The notes under the pieces are model-generated. The model did not search any database. It was not told where the DNA came from and saw only the letters and a program-made list of their open reading frames with translations. 64,000 bases of DNA from Bolinopsis microptera (Eukaryota; Ctenophora; Tentaculata; Lobata; Bolinopsidae). Where the stretch lies: NCBI RefSeq assembly GCF_026151205.1, contig NC_087074.1, forward strand, positions 17,644,712-17,708,711, read 5' to 3'. Both the position numbers and the translations under genes were made by a program. Positions 4,349 through 63,050 of the stretch are shown here, one piece after another; within the stretch, counting starts at the first letter, position 1, and every line of letters starts with the position of its first letter.

Positions 4349-4379
<31 letters not shown>

Positions 4380-5543
4380 GGGGGGGTTCACCCTGATTTT
4401 TTTTGTGAAACTTGGTTTCGAGATAGTAGTTGATCAACAAACTAAGACCGGTGACCGAACTTTTGAGGGGGTCCCAGACCCCAACCGCCAAACGGTGCCC
4501 GCGGGGCACACAGCAAACCCTACCAGCTGGGGTATATCTCCAAAAGTAAAATAAATAGAACCTTCCGGTTTTCAACAAAATTTCCGTCTCGTGAATTTAC
4601 AGTTGGCTCCCCAGGAGCCAAATTTGGGACAACGTAGATTCTGAATTAAACCGAAAAGTTTGATTTTGGGCTAAATAAAAGATCACAGCTTTTAAACTTT
4701 GCAAAGAAATGTCGTTGTCCATTGTCATGACTACTAAGCTAAATGCAGCGTGCGAAAAGTAAACTTGACGTGACGCGCGACGACAAACGTGCTGTTGAAA
4801 ATCTATCACCTCTAGCAAGCCCAGCAGGCGGTAAGGTTTTCTGGGCAGCCACGCCCATATTTGAATAGAACTCAATAGGGTTTCAATATTTTTACATGAA
4901 ATTTTCAGAATTAACGTAGAATCGCATTTCGACTTTAAGTTTTGTATTGGAATTTCGACTTAAAGTTTTGTATTGGAATTTTGAGTTAGGCCTTTAAAAA
5001 ATTTGAGCGAAATCAGTTTTGCAAATATTGCAAACTGAGATATGGGCGATTTTGTTCATTTTTTGCAGTTATTTGAACACAGAATCCACAGTTAGTTAGA
5101 TACTGAGCTGATAATCATAGAGAATGTGTAGTATAGGCTTACCTTCCATATAAAGTAAGTTTCATTCAAAAATATTGATATTTGACTAATTTATGGGCCA
5201 AAATCGATCGATCAAATTTAGTGAGTATGCCCAAATATGGGCATATAGTTTTTAGCTCATAACTCAGTCATTTTTTGTCCAATCTTGATGAAACTTCATA
5301 TACGAGTTCAGGGGACCACTAGCTACAAGTAGAGCACCTAAAATCTGGGTTTTGGGCATGTTCAGGGTATTTGGCTAAATTGGGCCTGATTTGGACCAAA
5401 TATGGGCGTGGCTGCCCCGCGGGCACCGTTTGGCGGTTGGGGTCCGGGACCCCCTCAAAAGTTTGGTCACTGGTCCTAGTTTGTTGGTCAACTGCTATCT
5501 CGAAACCAAGTTTCACAAAAAAATCAGGGTGAACCCCCCCCCC
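4349..5543. mobile_element. Inverted-repeat element B with poly-G end
   Basis: Terminal inverted repeats of roughly 130-150 bp start with a G run (4349-4377) then GTTCACCCTGATTT, and end with the complementary C run at 5543. The TIRs include a GC-rich block (GCCCCGCGGGCACCGTTTGG). The unique interior (about 4510-4860) differs from element A, while the right half (about 4864-5543) matches A's right arm. Apparent open frames inside come from the TIRs and the G run and are not genes. Confidence 0.75.
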
Positions 5544-9600: not shown

Positions 9601-9880
9601 ACTTAACACGTGGTGCGACGTCTCAACACGTGGTGCGAATTTTCAACACGTGGTGCGACGTCTCAACACGTGATGCGACGTCTCAACACGTGGTGCGACG
9701 TCTCAACACGTGGTGCGACGTCTCAACACGTGGTGCGACGTCTCAACACGTGGTGCGACGTCTCAACACGTGGTGCGACGTCTCAACACGTGGTGCGACG
9801 TCTCAACACGTGGTGCGACGTCTCAACACGTGGTGCGACGTCTCAACACGTGGTGCGACGTCTCAACACGTGGTCGAACG
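9601..9880. repeat. 20-bp minisatellite, 14 copies, each with CACGTG
   Basis: Fourteen units of TCTCAACACGTGGTGCGACG start 20 bp after the stop codon of the flavin reductase gene. Every unit holds one palindromic CACGTG. Variants are the first three units, one CACGTGATG unit and the last unit (TGGTCGAACG). The 20-bp period is not a codon multiple. The open frames through it are artefacts of repetition. Confidence 0.95.
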
Positions 9881-21541: not shown

Positions 21542-24500
21542 ATGACGTCATCAGTTGATCAGAAAGTCAGTATTCTATCTCTACTCCGTGCCTCAGCTAT
21601 ATTCGGTGCTATAGAGTTCGTGTACAGTGCTGAAACAGCATACTCTACCCCTCTCCTCGAGTCAGCTGGTATTGATGAGAAGTATACTGCCCTCACCTGG
21701 TCTATGAGTCCGGTTATAGGTACTGTTAGTGTTGTCATGGGTACTGTTTGTGTTGTCATGGGTACTGTTAGTGTTGTCATAGGTACTGTTAGTGTTGTCA
21801 TGGGTACTGTTAGTGTTGTCATAGGTACTGTTAGTGTTGTCATAGGTACTGTTAGTGTTGTCATGGGTACTGTTTGTGTTGTCATGGGTACTGTTAGTGT
21901 TGTCATGGGTACTGTTAGTGTTGTCATGGGTACTGTTAGTGTTGTCATAGGTACTGTTAGCGTTGTCATGGGTACTGTTTGTGTTGTCATGGGTACTGTT
22001 TGTGTTGTCATGGGTACTGTTAGTGTTGTCATGGGTACTGTTAGTGTTGTCATAGGTACTGTTAGTGTTGTCATGGGTACTGTTTGTGTTGTCATGGGTA
22101 CTGTTAATGTTGTCATGGGTACTGTTTGTGTTGTCATGGGTACTGTTGCTGCATCTTACTTGGCACAAAACACAGTTATAAAGTTTGTTTTGGACAGACG
22201 TTTACCTGAGACTCTTGTTTTGCAGGGTTCGTGTTGCAGCCGATAGTTGGTATTTTAAGTGACAGATGTATGTGCAGATGGGGGAGGAGGAAACCGTTCA
22301 TCCTCATCCTTGCTCTCATCATCTTCACTGCTTCCTTCATTTTACCTCTAAGCAGGGACATTGGTAAGAAAGCAAGCATAATTTATATATATGATGCTGT
22401 ATTTGAAGTGGTTCAAACTTAAAGGGAATTAAAGGGATTTGACATCTTTCAAGAATTTCATTTCTTAACTTATTCATTTCAGGAACCAATCTAGGTAACA
22501 TTTTCAAGTTTAGCCCCACAGTGATCACAGGAGCAGTTACAGTAATCAGTGTCATCATGTTGGACTTCTGTAACGACTCCATTCACACCCCACTGCGAGC
22601 CTTCCTAGCTGACGCGTACCCTCGTACAGTGGAGGTACAGGAGCTGAGTAACACTCTCTACTCTATTGTGGGAGGGTTCGGGGGCATGTTCGGGTACATT
22701 CTCTGTTCTATTGACACGTCTTTTGTTGAGGAACCCATCTCGAGACTCACAGGTACATATCATATTGTCATCTACACCAATAAAAAGGGTTGAGTCCGCT
22801 CACTCAGATAATACAAAATTTAAGGACAAGTCTGAAGTCATGCAACATTACAATGCATTCTGGTTACTATAAATACATTTGCAGGGTCGAAAGAATACAA
22901 CCAAGAGAAGGCAGTGTTTGGGGTGTGTATCGTGGTTCTAATCCTCGGCACCGTCATTACCCTCACCTCCCGCAAAGAAAGGAACCCTAACTTGGAGGGG
23001 AGCGAAGAGGAACCGCTCATCCAGAAACGTAGGGAGATACTGAAAATTAGTGATGATAACGAACCTGAGATGATCATTAAAGCTCATAGTTTACAAGGTA
23101 ATGGTACATGATAACTCTGAGTTGTTGATGGAAGTTTGTGATTGATGTGATCATGATACTATATTACTCTAAGACTTCGAGTCAACGATTTGTTACCTTA
23201 TAGCATTTGCAAATCGAGATTTCTGTATCTGAGCGAATTTTCTGATTTGCTTACTTCACTGTGGTCTGATTTACCCAACGTTGGCAATTTTTACCTAAAT
23301 CACTTCAACACCACAACCATGACGATATTCCCTCAGAGGGAGACGAAAGTAGGATAAGTTTGAGAACTTTGGTACTGAGTATAGTGAAGATCCCAGGAAA
23401 GATAGCAGTGTTGATGATAATGCAGCTTTTGACGAGTTCTATCATGTTTTGCTACTTCCTGTACTTCACTACATTTGTTGCTAAAGTTGTTTACAACGCG
23501 AGCCCTGGAGATAAACATTTCACTGATGGTAAGGTTGCTTTTCTGTTTGTATGTTAAAAACGGGCTAGTATAGCTTCTTTGAGTTCGAACACTAAATTCG
23601 TTAAAATTTAAAATCCTTTGGTCACTCTAAATTTAATTAAGAGTTTACTTAAGAGTTTAAAACATTCAGCAGAGTTTGAGTATTTGTTGATAGATTTGCA
23701 ATTTAATCAGGTATTTAATCATTATATGGGATGCATAATAATAATAATATCACACTTCTTTTGAAAGGATTCACCCGTACGTTTATAACTAATGGATTAT
23801 ATAACTAGTATTAAATCATTTTAATTCGAAAACTCTAGTGCGGTTTAAAAACTAAATCTGAATCTCACTAAAATTCAAATCATCAAGCGGACCGCGTTAA
23901 AAAAACTTTGAATTGACGATATATATTTTAATCCCCAGGTGTGAGATGGGGTTGTCTGGGGATGACCTTGATGTCTTTAACCTGCATCACCTTCAGTTTC
24001 CTGCTACCCACCTTCATCAAAAGGTTTGGAATTTAATCTTTCGTTTATCTTATCTTTAAACTCACGAATGTGGTTACAGTTCAGTTATAGGGCCTCAACT
24101 TCAAGTTCATAATTGTTCGAAATAATTTATATTGAAATGTGATAAGGTGCTATCTAGTGTTCATGTTTTTACGAACAATTAACTCGATGGGTTTGAAAAA
24201 CATGACTGACCTATGACCTAACAATCTAAATTCCAAAAGTAAAGATCGTATGATTTAACAACCACCATGAGGCTTATAATTAAATTTAAATAACCTATGA
24301 GTCATAACAATAACATGACCTTATCCCCCAACGGTGCACTGGTACTAGCACTACCGTAATAACCGTACTATTCCACAGGACCTCAATCAAAGCGATCTAC
24401 TTCATTAGCCACGTGGCAGCATGTGCCGGGTTCGCTCTAATGCCTTGGTTCGCCAACAAGACCACAGTCATCCTATTCAGCATATTTCCTGGAGTCCTGA

Positions 24501-48882: not shown

Positions 48883-51800
48883 ATGTTTCTCTTGAATTGC
48901 TGCTTTTTATTTGGATCAACTCTCTTACAGGTTAGACAGCTTGTTCATATATTACTTCAGAATAAGATCCTACAAGTTTTATATCTTAATTTTAATTGCT
49001 GATGAGAGAACTTATAAAAGGTAGCAGTCTGGTTTTAAGGTTCCTTGGTATAGAGTCCTAAATAAAATTCAACCGTATGTAAAACTGTAAAACAAATCAC
49101 AACGTACTAGGTAGACTGTTGCACCCATGACTCAGCGCTTAATTAGGCTAAGACTCGTTAATTTGAATTAGAAGCTCGTAGAAAGTAAAAAGAAAAAACG
49201 ATAAGAGTGCAATTCTACCGGAGTAAGATTTCGTAGAATCTTGAAGGTGATTGGCGCCTGATTCCTGATCTCAGGTGCCGACAAAAACAAAATACTGAAG
49301 TTAACCACAGATAATCTTAAAACTCAGCAATTGATATTAAATTATACTTTTTAAAGTAAGCAATTTAATTATTATATAATTTAGTAATTGGTCATTATCT
49401 TACGTTAGAGTGGAGTGTGGGGGTATGTTGAAGATTACCACGAGAAGGGATGCTCAGCGGAAACAGAGTATTCAGTCTCCACCAGCTTCCCCTGGAACAA
49501 GTTACCAACTGTACTCCCAAAGTTCCATCTCACTGTCACTGACGTTGCTTTCATTATACACAACGACAGGTAATGTTTTAGGCTTGTTTCTCAAGGCCAC
49601 CGCACCTGTAAACAGTTATATTGGAGTCGCGTGAGAAATCTCATTGATTAACGCGCGGTGCTTTTGTTACGAGAGAACATAAAAAGAAGTTGTTAAGTGG
49701 ATTTTAAGTATCTGAATTTTATTTATTTATGATTTATCAAATTATCTGATATGATTTATTTTACGACTTGAAGTGTAAAACATTATCCATTATCTCTGTT
49801 GGCCAGGTTTCGTGTGTACAGATCAGGAAGGAAATCCAGTGCAGGACTAGCGGAGTTTGTTGAGACCGGGAGTTTGGAGCAGCTCAGGAATACTGTTGGC
49901 ACTGACGGTTACATCCTGAAGGTTGAGAAAATTAATGCATTGTTAAAAACTGCATTGAATTATCCTTATCAATCCTGCATCGCTCGCGACAACGGTGGAA
50001 TCACCCCTCATTTGATACTTCGAATTAGGGCTCGTCTTACTTCCACAATTTTTGTTGCCAATATATAATAAGTTCAGAGCTTACAGTAGACTACAATAAT
50101 AATAATAATTTCGATAAATAAAGCGGTCGTTTTGCGACTTAGCATCAAAAAGTAGACGAAGTACGGTTAAGACGAAATCTATAAATGTCAGAAATAATCT
50201 TCCACCATTGAAAAGTTTTAAAAATCCAAATTCTGATGCCAGAAAAAGTTGGCTGGGTACCCAAAAACGTGAGCACAAGAACATTTTCATGAAAAATATT
50301 ACTGTGTTGACGTGATATATAACTTGGATTGGCAACGTTATGTCTCGGAACCTGTGAAGCCACCGCGTGTAACTCACGTTGTCTTCAGGGTATGCGTGAC
50401 TCAAGTAGTTCTGAAACCACTCCAGTCTTTACAACTAACGTGACGGTGACTTTTGCAAGACGTTTTCTGACTGTCGTGGGCAGGGTGGATAAAACGCCTG
50501 ACTGGTTTGTGGCCAGTACTTCCCAGGATCTCTGTAACCAGGAGCCGTATTTTAGTGAGATAACCCAAGAGTGGAAACTTGGAGATTATCAGGATCTTCT
50601 CCTGCTCGATGTTGGTAAGAACTGGGACTTGGGAACCTGCTTTCCGCACTGTACCAATAACCTCAATTAAAATAAGATCTGGATTTTGAGTCATACCCAT
50701 CGATATTGTGAAATGTAGAACCGGTAACTTGTATTTGGAAATAAGTGGTACACATTTTCTACTAATTGATATGGAAGAAAAGTATAAAAAATATTAATCA
50801 CAATTCCCAGGAACGTTTATAACACCAACTCAACGAAATGCGCGACCTCGTCCAATCAAACCGATCAGCTACAACAAGGATATTGGATATACTGTGACAA
50901 AGAACGATGAAGATGTATCTTCTGTCGGAGTTGTGGATGCTAGAAGAAGAGGTGAGCTGTTTATTTTATTTCATTTGAAAAACTTTCATTACAGAATACT
51001 AGTCGTTCGGGGACAAAGTTTTGTTTAGAAATGTCTGCTGTTAAACCCCTGCAGCTCAATAAGATTAAAGAGTGTTGTGCCTCCTGAGGGCAATCAACGG
51101 AATCGATGGTGATCATCACAACAATTCATCATAATATACTCAACTTGATCTATAAATACCCCTCCACACTTAACAGTCAACAGTGCTAACACCACCTCCC
51201 CCAGCGTGTCCTGTATTCGGAACATCAGCCTACTCGGTAGGACAGGAGTGGAGACAGGGACCCTGTACCCACTGCAAGTGTCTGGACACCAACAAGGACG
51301 TGTGCACCAGGGAGGTTTGTCCGCCTCCCTCCTGCGAGTACTTTGTGTTCCAACCTGACGTGTGTTGCCCTGTGTGTCAAGACAGGAGTGATTATTTGAA
51401 GATTGTGGAGAAGACTAGAAACCCAGGTGATCGAGTTATTTTTGCAGAATTTAGTATTTTATACAGATTACAGCTTTTACTGATAAATTGATACCCACAC
51501 CCCAAATAAGATACATATAGTTTCATTGCGTCTTAATATTGCACCTCCTCCCTCCCAGATCCCCCAGTAATATTGCACCTCCTCCCTCCCAGATCCCCCA
51601 GTAATATTGCACCTCCTCCCTCCCAGATCCCCCAGTAATATTGCACCTCCTCCCTCCCAGATCCCCCAGTAATATTGCACCTCCTCCCTCCCAGATCCCC
51701 CAGTAATATTGCACCTCCTCCCTCCCAGATCCCCCAGTAATATTGCACCTCCTCCCTCCCAGATCCCCCAGTAATATTGCACCTCCTCCCTCCCAGATCC

Positions 51801-52815
51801 CCCAGTAATATTGCACCTCCTCCCTCCCAGATCCCCCAGTGATTGTAAAGAAGCCCGGTAACGTAACAGTACCTCTGGGAGGTTCCTTCACACTGGATTG
51901 CACTGCGTGGGGCGACCCTGCACCCCAGATACAACTCCTCCGCAACAGACCTGAAGACTTCGTTCACGTTCATCTGGACCCTGTCCAGGACGTGAAACCT
52001 GGTGAGAGATATTAAGGGTGTTTATTAGAGGGGCAGGGGTGTCTGGGAGTTATCAATTATAAATATACTTTATATTGTGAGTTATATCCTTCATTTCGTA
52101 TGAATTTAGGTTTTAGTAGCTCATCGTTATTGGTTGTATCGTTAGTTATCTCTTTTGATAAAATATTCCAGATAAGAGAATTAGGTGCGAAAATTAGATA
52201 TGAAAACCTGGCAGTCTCAGATTGTCGGTTAATTTTCAATTTGTCTGGACAAAACCATATACCGTCACGGTTCACCAACTGTCTTGGGTAATTGGTATTT
52301 TAAAGGGATACTCAACTTCTTCATCTTTATCGACGCTCTATGAATACTTCGAGTCTGAAAATTGCCCAAAATTTATAACGATGAAAGACGATCGACTATT
52401 AAGATAATTGAAAGTTGACAAGAGTTGCACTTCCAAATATTTCTGTGAAAGTGGAGAAGGGGAATTTACAACCATAGAATTAGATAAGGGCGATATCGGG
52501 CGAATAAATATCACAATTTTATCACATATATTTAAGCTTAAGGTTCAGTTTAGCTCTTTAGACAAACTCGTTCTCAACAATTCAGTATTCATCCCTTAAA
52601 AAGTAAAAATAATTTGTACCATAACTTTTAAATGGAACACAGATTAATATCTCATTTTAACTTGAATAAACAGTAATACCCCCGGTGTTCCAGGTTTAAG
52701 TAGAGCGAGTCTAAAGATAGATGTCATGACAGAAGATAGAGTTGGAAGATACACCTGCTTTGTGAACAGTATCGGAGGGTCTCGCGAAGAACACGCTCAT
52801 GTAATCCTCAAATGA
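48883..52815 (+). CDS. Secreted Spondin_N-VWC-Ig protein (8 exons, 408 aa)
   Basis: Exons are 48883-48930, 49409-49569, 49807-49921, 50389-50614, 50811-50951, 51184-51426, 51831-52001 and 52694-52815; phases close. Exon 1 encodes a signal peptide (MFLLNCCFLFGSTLLQ), though an in-frame ATG further up (48784) is possible. Aa about 27-205 are a Spondin_N domain, with KSSAGLAEFVETG corresponding to the family's AS-GLK-xAE-G and VGRVDKTPDWFVASTSQDLC to its PSPDWIVG-DSL-LC. Exon 6 is a von Willebrand type C domain with CKC and CCPVC motifs. Exons 7-8 form one Ig domain, with FTLDCTAWG and the GRYTCFVN Cys. This is probably an extracellular-matrix or guidance protein related to F-spondin/mindin, but without thrombospondin repeats. 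The acceptor of exon 7 lies at the end of a 9-copy repeat. Confidence 0.82.
51541..51830 (+). repeat. 34-bp minisatellite carrying 9 copies of a splice acceptor
   Basis: The array fills most of the 404-bp intron before exon 7 of the Spondin_N-VWC-Ig gene. Each unit ends in a pyrimidine tract and AG (CACCTCCTCCCTCCCAG). It is followed by ATCCCCCAGT, which is also the start of exon 7. AG ends fall at 51558, 51592, 51626, 51660, 51694, 51728, 51762, 51796 and 51830. The last gives the exon start GAT-CCC-CCA-GTG-ATT-GTA. The 34-bp period shifts the frame. Confidence 0.95.
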
Positions 52816-52894
52816 GAAGTGTCTCTAAATGAGAAGTGTCTCTAAATGAGACGTGTCTCTAAATGAGACGTGTCCCTAAATGAGACATGTTTAC
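52810..52894 (+). repeat. 17-bp repeat, 5 copies, starting at the stop codon
   Basis: AAATGAGAAGTGTCTCT begins at 52810, so its first AAATGA is the last Lys codon and stop of the spondin-domain gene. Copies follow at 52827, 52844, 52861 and 52878, with small changes (GAAGTG to GACGTG to GACATG). The divergence gradient away from the stop suggests growth by local duplication. Confidence 0.9.
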
Positions 52895-61185: not shown

Positions 61186-61640
61186 CCAGCCAGCATATAT
61201 CACAGCGTCCTCCAGCCTGCAGCATATCACAGCGTCCTCCAGCCTGCAGCATATCACAGCGTCCTCCAGCCTGCATATCACAGCGTCCTCCAGCCAGCAT
61301 ATCACAGCGTCCTCCAGCCTGCATATCACAGCGTCCTCCAGCCTGCAGCATATCACAGCGTCCTCCAGCCTGCATATCACAGCGTCCTCCAGCCTGCATA
61401 TCACAGCGTCCTCCAGCCAGCAGCATATCACAGCGTCCTCCAGCCAGCATATCACAGCGTCCTCCAGCCTGCAGCATATCACAGCGTCCTCCAGCCTGCA
61501 GCATATCACAGCGTCCTCCAGCCTGCAGCATATCACAGCGTCCTCCAGCCTGCATATCACAGCGTCCTCCAGCCAGCATATCACAGCGTCCTCCAGCCTG
61601 CAGCATATCACAGCGTCCTCCAGCCAGCATATCACAGCGT
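61186..61640. repeat. 24/27-bp minisatellite, 18 copies
   Basis: Units of ATATCACAGCGTCCTCCAGC plus CTGC or CAGC, with or without an extra GCA, give a mix of 24- and 27-bp repeats. Because all lengths are codon multiples, long frames are open on both strands (for example repeats of YHSVLQPA on +). They have no start context or splice partners, so I treat them as artefacts. Confidence 0.92.
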
Positions 61641-63050
61641 CGACTCTTTCATTGCTGCTTTGCTACTACGCTCCGATATTACTTCCTCTCAAATGATTAT
61701 TAGACAGGAACATTGTTAAGTGTCATCCTCTAAGTCCAATCAGAAAATCGAGGAAATGGTTAACTTTTAACCTCTCCCTGCTTGTCCTTGACGTTTTTAA
61801 TCAAGATTTGCACAATTTGGATGGGCTCCAATTGTGAGATTAATGAGTAGTTGACTTCTCGAATTACGATCAGTCGCTTTGAATTTGAAACTTCCCTCCT
61901 TCTGTCAAATTTTGACATAACGGGGAAATTCTCTTATAAAATTCTCATAGCACGCATATTAATTTCCTTGATAGCTCACTAAACAGAATCCATGGTGATG
62001 TTTTGCTCTGTCACTAGCATTCTTGTAAGTATAAATATTGTACAATATGAGCGTATCACAAAGCTGTCGATAAGGACCACAATTTCAGTAGTTGCTTATA
62101 CTCTCAGGCTTGCCATTGATAAGTCATAACTTTAGTATGACGTATATAATATCCTCGGTCTGTGATTCCCCGTAATGAGTGCTACTATTTGTAACCTGAG
62201 TTTGTAACTTTTAGTTTGTAAATATTGTTTAGTTACTGCAGCTCATCGTAGTTTCTGTTTGGAGTCAGGTAAGCATTGTTCTGTATCTTGTACGAGCCAA
62301 TGCCAGTTCTTGGTGGTATCTATTTGGTCGTTGTTAAAGATCATATGAACTTACTGAACTTGGTTAACATCGCTTTACAGTTGAGACAGGAAAATAGCCT
62401 GTGTAGTTACTAGATAAACTCTTGTCTCGAAGGTGATTAACTTAAGCTACAGAATTGAGCCATTTATATCTTTGTTCTTCGTGAGATTTGCTATGTTTTA
62501 TAAGTTTGATAGGTTTTAAATGTAACATTCTCTGTTATAGGTTAAATAAGATCGTGATCCGTGGAGCTCACATGTTCAAATATGCGTGGAGAAACCAATT
62601 TTACCAGTCACCAGTCACCAGGGTACATGGTTAATTGTAACAATCTCGCACAGGGCGGCACCAGATGTCCCATTTGATTTTGACAGATTATTTATTAATC
62701 ATTCGACATTATACTATGTTTTATATTTCAGTATTACACCTGGTTTTATAACTTTATAACAGCCAAAACATCATCTTGTAGATTTCACGACTGTGCTGCT
62801 AGATCTAAAGTGACGCTTAAAACAAACTCAATGTTTTTAGTAAATTGGTCAATGCTAGCATTGAAAAATAAAATCTCCATCGTACACTGAAAACTATTTA
62901 CGCCACAAACTCTTCATTTGGTGGCGAAACACTTTATTTCTAGCATTTTATTCTGTCATATCCTGAAAATTACATTTACATGTAACATGATATGCAGCAC
63001 CGTAACCATATTAATATTGAACAATCAGAATTGATCCAGTCTAACACTGC
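61641..63050. other. Intergenic, no gene seen
   Basis: AT-rich sequence without exon-like frames or recognisable RNA genes. Confidence 0.4.

Follow-up and report, generated by a model that had tools for sequence, protein, structure and literature searches.

The window, a 64,000-nucleotide stretch of the Bolinopsis microptera genome (contig NC_087074.1, forward-strand positions 17,644,712 to 17,708,711), contains a spondin-like gene modelled as seven exons, with the first Ig exon sixth among them (Table 1). Joined in frame, the exons match Spond_N (1.9e-12), VWC (3.3e-06) and Ig_3 (2.7e-11). A Spond_N search of the genome for a paralogue (E ≤ 0.1) returned this locus only. The intron between the VWC exon and the first Ig exon holds a minisatellite that repeats the acceptor of the latter, and measures 132 nt with copy 1 as opposed to 404 nt with copy 9. 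The intron after the first Ig exon is 692 nt long, the longest among the modelled introns without the array, which start from 196 nt. A 17-bp minisatellite at 52810-52890 begins over the stop codon and carries copies of TGA on into the 3′ sequence.

Six arrays in the window have a unit of at least 15 bp and at least four copies (beginning at 9605, 17462, 21719, 51534, 52810 and 61197). Two of the six are at splice sites and one is over the spondin-like stop codon; no exon edge was seen by eye in the 150-base flanks of the other three. The array at 61197-61641 has 17.5 copies of a unit that varies in length (24/27 bp), and no exon edge was seen by eye next to this minisatellite. The window also contains runs of G (44 G at 2953-2996; 38 G, 94% pure, at 4349-4386).

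The other splice-site array repeats a donor, in a gene that we take to be SLC45-like and to which Pfam assigns MFS_2. About 20 donor repeats are in frame with no stop, and GTVSVVM-like residues would be gained per extra copy. When the exon is spliced from its first donor to the exon that follows, a single MFS_2 match spans the junction (7.6e-10).

Table 1. Positions of the splice-site arrays and of the spondin-like gene in the window
Feature	Position	Strand	Remarks
Minisatellite, 21 bp x 20.4	21719..22147	+	begins at donor of SLC45-like (MFS) exon; unit repeats (A or G)G/GTACTG in frame
Upstream exons, spondin-like gene	49418-49569, 49807-49921, 50389-50614, 50811-50951	+	mostly Spondin_N domain; start of first approximate
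VWC exon	51205..51426	+	donor GTGATC at 51427 opens array-holding intron
TTAAT of copy 1	51533..51537	+	full yTnAy match; GTAAT in later copies
Minisatellite, nine perfect copies of 34-bp unit TAATATTGCACCTCCTCCCTCCCAG/ATCCCCCAG	51534..51839	+	TRF, direct comparison
Copy 9: branch-point-like TAAT, C-rich tract, acceptor CAG	51806..51830	+	AG ends 51830; sole copy with main acceptor in Ig frame
Second CAG of copy 9, 9 nt downstream	51837..51839	+	use would mean in-frame loss of three residues (DPP)
First Ig exon, 171 nt	51831..52001	+	enters in phase 1 (G/AT CCC CCA GTG)
Last exon	52694..52815	+	Ig domain second half and stop codon

The 34-bp unit and its reading frames

The units of the 34-bp array are 100% identical, with one shared base added in the TRF call (51534-51840, score 614). 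An earlier note had described a 34-bp unit, repeated nine times, that carries a polypyrimidine-AG and the start of the exon; TRF and direct comparison both confirm this. The array that it placed at 51541-51831 is real, and only those limits were slightly short; the exon that it numbered 7 is the sixth of the present model. Relative to copy 9, the unit consists of 25 intronic bases ending in the acceptor CAG and 9 exonic bases. All nine copies contain a C-rich tract and CAG, and the unit thus carries a splice signal; the last copy adjoins the Ig exon, so that the repeat spans the exon-intron boundary. The main acceptor AGs end at 51558, 51592, 51626, 51660, 51694, 51728, 51762, 51796 and 51830. 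A second CAG lies 9 nt 3′ of each, bringing the array to 18 CAGs with AG spacings of 9 and 25 nt. Nine perfect 34-mers cannot be a product of chance. A 330-bp query holding the array had one match in the 264.65-Mb assembly searched. With regard to the idea of expansion driven by a G-quadruplex, no strict G3 motif was found on the minus strand of the array.

Reading frames were traced from all 18 CAGs, and the Ig domain is read through from just two of them, the main acceptor of copy 9 and the CAG 9 nt after it. Among the nine main acceptors, copy 8 meets CGG-TAA, copy 7 CAG-TGA and copies 1-6 CAG-TAA; copies 1-7 share the same short tail and that of copy 8 is slightly different. The 34-nt step thus shifts the frame as had been claimed, and the stops previously traced one, two and three units upstream recur as the same codons at copies 8, 7 and 6. 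That only the last copy gives full-length protein holds for the main acceptors, and the in-frame choice 9 nt downstream stands as a possibility, as the second CAG also reads through Ig. In the gene model the early stops fall 139-362 nt upstream of the last exon junction. Nonsense-mediated decay usually follows a rule of about 50 nt, and decay of early-copy mRNAs is therefore expected.

Every unit also repeats a branch-point-like TAAT, the second A of which lies 22 nt before the last AG base with no AG between. The usual rule is that the first AG 3′ of the branch point is taken, very close AGs being allowed for, and AGs less than about 12 nt apart are reported to compete (PMC1431707, in excerpt). 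At a distance of 9 nt the second CAG may therefore compete with the first. With its own TAAT and no intervening AG, copy 9 is usable under the ordinary first-AG rule. The unusual branch-point position or mechanism previously invoked for the choice of the ninth AG is therefore unnecessary, with a TAAT about 22 nt before each AG. Distant scanning was rejected as unnecessary on the same ground. Since the whole 3′ splice-site module has been copied, the choice becomes one of competition among nine modules.

Splice-site arrays elsewhere in the genome

A GNL2/NOG2-like exon (L033, L054, L058; C1:1104300-1112400) is preceded by 8 tandem acceptors and followed by about 164 tandem donors, as estimated by length. 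The acceptor module is about 41 bp x 8, and the 38-bp donor unit extends from ~C1:1104930 to ~C1:1111165. With its peptide CCKVAP...MMCK, the exon matches nucleolar GTP-binding protein 2 (4.2e-14). A search of the genome with it gave this one locus and, beyond that, a weak match (42% over 31 residues, E 0.9), this single-copy test covering the GNL2 exon only among the array genes. Started at the last acceptor, the exon matches NOG2 from its second residue; joined at the first donor to the in-frame next exon, it gives a gapless NOG2 alignment across the junction (1.1e-23), from which it follows that splicing at the first donor is required for the conserved protein.

In a SETD2-like gene (L041, L053; C1:16972700-16975300), the intron separating the SET exon from the next exon consists largely of 26-bp acceptor modules, about 68 by length. 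By itself the second exon found no match in the PDB; when it is joined to the SET exon from the exon-proximal acceptor, all 51 residues of the resulting peptide align to SETD2 (7.1e-19). The conserved GNL2, SETD2-like and SLC45-like proteins, as read from the genome, thus appear to correspond to the exon-proximal array copy.

Further arrays were observed at other loci. A small open exon (L055, L050; C10:17037700-17039700) is preceded by a tandem set of three acceptor modules and followed by one of more than 36 donors. A TAF2-like exon (L046, L059; C8:7268100-7270100) is preceded by a 37-bp unit, TTTCAG/GTAAGT, forming a row that resembles recursive splice sites. In L043, presumably an importin-like gene, the exon that precedes the donor array seems to have a 3′ splice-site array as well, with about four units of 38-40 bp at positions 84-240.

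Branch-point-like motifs were sought in nine 3′-type units. In six, TAAT or TAAC lies 14-23 nt before the AG end, and in one CTTAC lies 18 nt before it. The remaining two (L079 and the upstream array of L043) are without a convincing motif, which counts against the main explanation given below.

The genome was searched for motifs and their reversed forms, and the donor motifs AGGTAAG, CAGGTAAGT and AAGGTGAGT and the acceptor motifs YYYYYYYCCAG and TTTTYTNCAG had more x3 matches than their reversals; figures for an x3 pattern count matches and not arrays, and matches inside one array are not independent. CAGGTAAGT x3 had 431 matches (2463 single occurrences) and the reversed motif 0 (1212 single occurrences). 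At least nine arrays are present among the first 100 of the 431 matches listed, and 7/9 abut what reads as a coding exon. When ≥9/2463 is set against 0/1212, with the nine arrays among those first 100 matches, the one-sided Fisher p is 0.027. Genuine donors must make up part of the single CAGGTAAGT occurrences, and arrays at exon edges are therefore partly expected. Three of the seven exon-abutting arrays have Pfam matches: a homeodomain (2.2e-13, over its cut-off), the TAF2-like match (3.1e-06, 26.7 bits vs a cut-off of 27, in the exon beside the array-adjoining one) and a MABP1/WDR62 WD40 match (1e-04, partial and far below the model cut-off). The TAF2-like exon had no PDB match, and its 3′ array was matched by the CAGGTAAGT search because its CAG is followed by GTAAGT. 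L042, L043 and L048, the other three of the six searched, had no Pfam match.

The counts for AAGGTGAGT x3 were 125 vs 28 reversed, with at least 17 arrays among the first 100 of the 125 matches listed. Six of these 17 are at exon edges by reading, and the array start was not reached in one. Two are homology-supported, one exon matching aspartyl protease (5.2e-04, Pfam) and cathepsin D (1.6e-05, PDB) and the other a SEL1 repeat (3.4e-05, Pfam, below cut-off) and sel-1 homolog (9e-13, PDB). L062 is presumably DPH2, a reading for which searches gave no match. CTTTCCAG x3 showed only 71 matches vs 52 reversed; nine arrays occur in all 71, two of them clearly at an exon edge and one more possibly so. 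TTTTYTNCAG x3 gave 7 vs 0 and two arrays in all seven matches, one at an exon edge. For YYYYYYYCCAG x3 the figures were 1993 vs 443, with at least seven arrays among the matches listed; of the five C-rich acceptor arrays fetched, one is at a supported exon edge (SETD2-like) and one is unclear. AGGTAAG x3 yielded 3501 vs 98, and the 100 matches listed all belong to the GNL2 array.

These motif counts suggest preferential birth of arrays at splice sites. The enrichment is suggested and not shown, because within-array matches are non-independent, four of the six match listings cover the first 100 places and control arrays are uncounted. Moreover, exon-edge calls made from open frame and splice sites alone are open to error. 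Thirty protein-kinase loci, a sample not picked for repeats and with exon splice edges unscored, contained few repeats.

In 3/21 exon-edge arrays (units of 21, 27 and 45 bp) the unit length can be divided by three, vs seven expected by chance, and the copies therefore do not look selected for usable extra sequence. The 21 comprise both window arrays, both GNL2 arrays, the SETD2-like and TAF2-like arrays and those at L042, L043, L044, L048, L049, L050, L051, L061, L062, L063, L070, L071, L073, L079 and L082. The L055 3′ array (period 33 or 34), the L043 upstream array and L084 (only a possible case) were left out.

Discussion

The 34-bp array fits the mirage type of repeat, a kind already known from amphioxus. 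The original report of the Adh mirage is said to be that of Canestro in 2002. In excerpts of two papers on lancelet genes (PMC3087553, PMC3902484), tandem repeats across exon-intron boundaries are termed "mirages", and the Adh and globin data suggest normal splicing. The same excerpts place mirages in Adh3, globins BflGb6 and BflGb9, TnC and PGBD5, at either exon end and many with AG/GT signals, and report that the copy number of a globin mirage differed between two haplotypes of one gene (PMC3087553, PMC3902484). The B. microptera array resembles these in spanning an exon-intron boundary with a unit that carries a splice signal. However, copy numbers in B. microptera are higher in places (about 68 and 164 by length), and two exons have arrays at both ends (GNL2, supported by homology, and L055, by open frame only). 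The host is also a ctenophore and not a lancelet.

The human IFI6 (6-16) gene reportedly has a minisatellite with multiple splice donors, described by Turri in 1995 and cited in PMC3618361 and PMC2915984. There too the unit repeats a splice site, but donors are repeated where the 34-bp array repeats acceptors; the SLC45-like donor array is the closer match. Zhuo, in 2007, is said to have described human introns arising from tandem arrays. In those cases paralog repeats are linked to new introns, whereas with use of copy 9 the intron of the spondin-like gene keeps its position. The paired CAGs of each copy are similar to NAGNAG and other close tandem acceptors in that both could serve in frame, but their spacing is 9 nt and not 3, and the main feature is the 34-nt step. 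Human tandem repeats at exon-intron boundaries (ITRs) are reported to change splicing (PMC2812944, in excerpt). Beyond the papers cited, no report of such arrays in non-lancelet invertebrates was found by a search that fell short of most subscription papers.

We think it likely that this is a mirage minisatellite in which the exon-proximal copy 9 is mainly used, the earlier copies being inert, or leaky and decayed, with no special function. A stretch reaching from the branch-point region as far as base nine of the Ig exon would first have undergone tandem duplication, with later expansion to the present nine copies. The unit contains the motifs of a complete 3′ splice-site module, and the exon-adjacent copy should therefore be self-sufficient as an acceptor. 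The spliceosome would mainly take copy 9, most likely by recognition across the exon, and the full Spondin_N-VWC-Ig protein would then be made. Earlier copies would behave as inert intron or as low-level cryptic acceptors, with frameshifted products presumably cleared by decay. The repeat would have no special function of its own, and an unstable copy number is to be expected. We infer the main use of copy 9 from the intact Ig domain, the logic of the three other genes and the lancelet reports; the function of the GNL2-like, SETD2-like and SLC45-like genes in B. microptera is taken here as assumed. Alternative splicing to early copies is a possible candidate, but it is not needed to explain the array, because amphioxus arrays are reported to splice normally and the GNL2, SETD2-like and SLC45-like genes match exon-proximal copies.

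In long introns the sites nearest across the exon are favoured, and in short introns those nearest across the intron; for 3′ splice sites exon definition is reported to reduce the upstream preference, and not to reverse it in all classes (PMC9225289, in excerpt). Use of copy 9 leaves flanking introns of 404 and 692 nt, which we counted for exon-proximal choice under the long-intron trend. Copy 1, with its full yTnAy and 132-nt intron, would be favoured under intron definition, and this counts against copy 9, as does a reported upstream preference that is lowered without reversal in every class. The main acceptor could instead be copy 1, or several early copies could share the role, and the gene would then yield for the most part decayed mRNA or a short Spondin_N-VWC protein, from an allele with partial loss of function, perhaps polymorphic. 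Copy 1 has both the shortest intron and the branch-point motif that fits best, use of the first AG 3′ of the branch point is the usual rule (PMC1431707, in excerpt), and the stops lie far enough upstream (139-362 nt before the last junction) to agree with such an outcome. We nevertheless judge it unlikely, as winning exon-distal copies would deny the GNL2-like and SETD2-like genes their conserved protein, and the frame of the Ig exon is open with good Pfam scores.

It is highly improbable that the array is a selected regulatory device, in which controlled use of acceptors would give soluble Ig-less forms or an output tuned by decay. The shared tail of copies 1-7 would make the outcome independent of exact copy number, as such a device might require, but the perfect identity of the units fits recent homogenisation with no tuning visible, the unit length is so seldom a multiple of three (3/21 exon-edge arrays) and arrays are found at unrelated genes. 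The least probable reading is that the number of nine copies is an assembly error. The perfection of all nine copies would be in keeping with this, yet the span is just 306 bp, and other arrays of the window and genome show internal variants and many different units.

We put forward tentatively, and with some doubt, that minisatellites in this ctenophore genome arise preferentially at splice sites, such that many exons, those of conserved single-copy genes included, are flanked on one side or both by as many as about 160 near-identical splice sites, of which the exon-proximal one is reliably taken. Were this true, exon definition in an early-branching animal would be put to a natural test across the whole genome. 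Where the sites of an array are identical, differences in splice-site strength are largely taken out of play, so that the copy used shows how position decides, and they could reveal how cells pick among identical splice sites. Should exon-proximal copies win at the GNL2-like and SETD2-like genes, exon definition would be supported in B. microptera, and the same outcome would explain how unstable repeats can lie on splice sites without broken genes. The arrays also carry a phenomenon described from lancelets over to a probably distant animal lineage.
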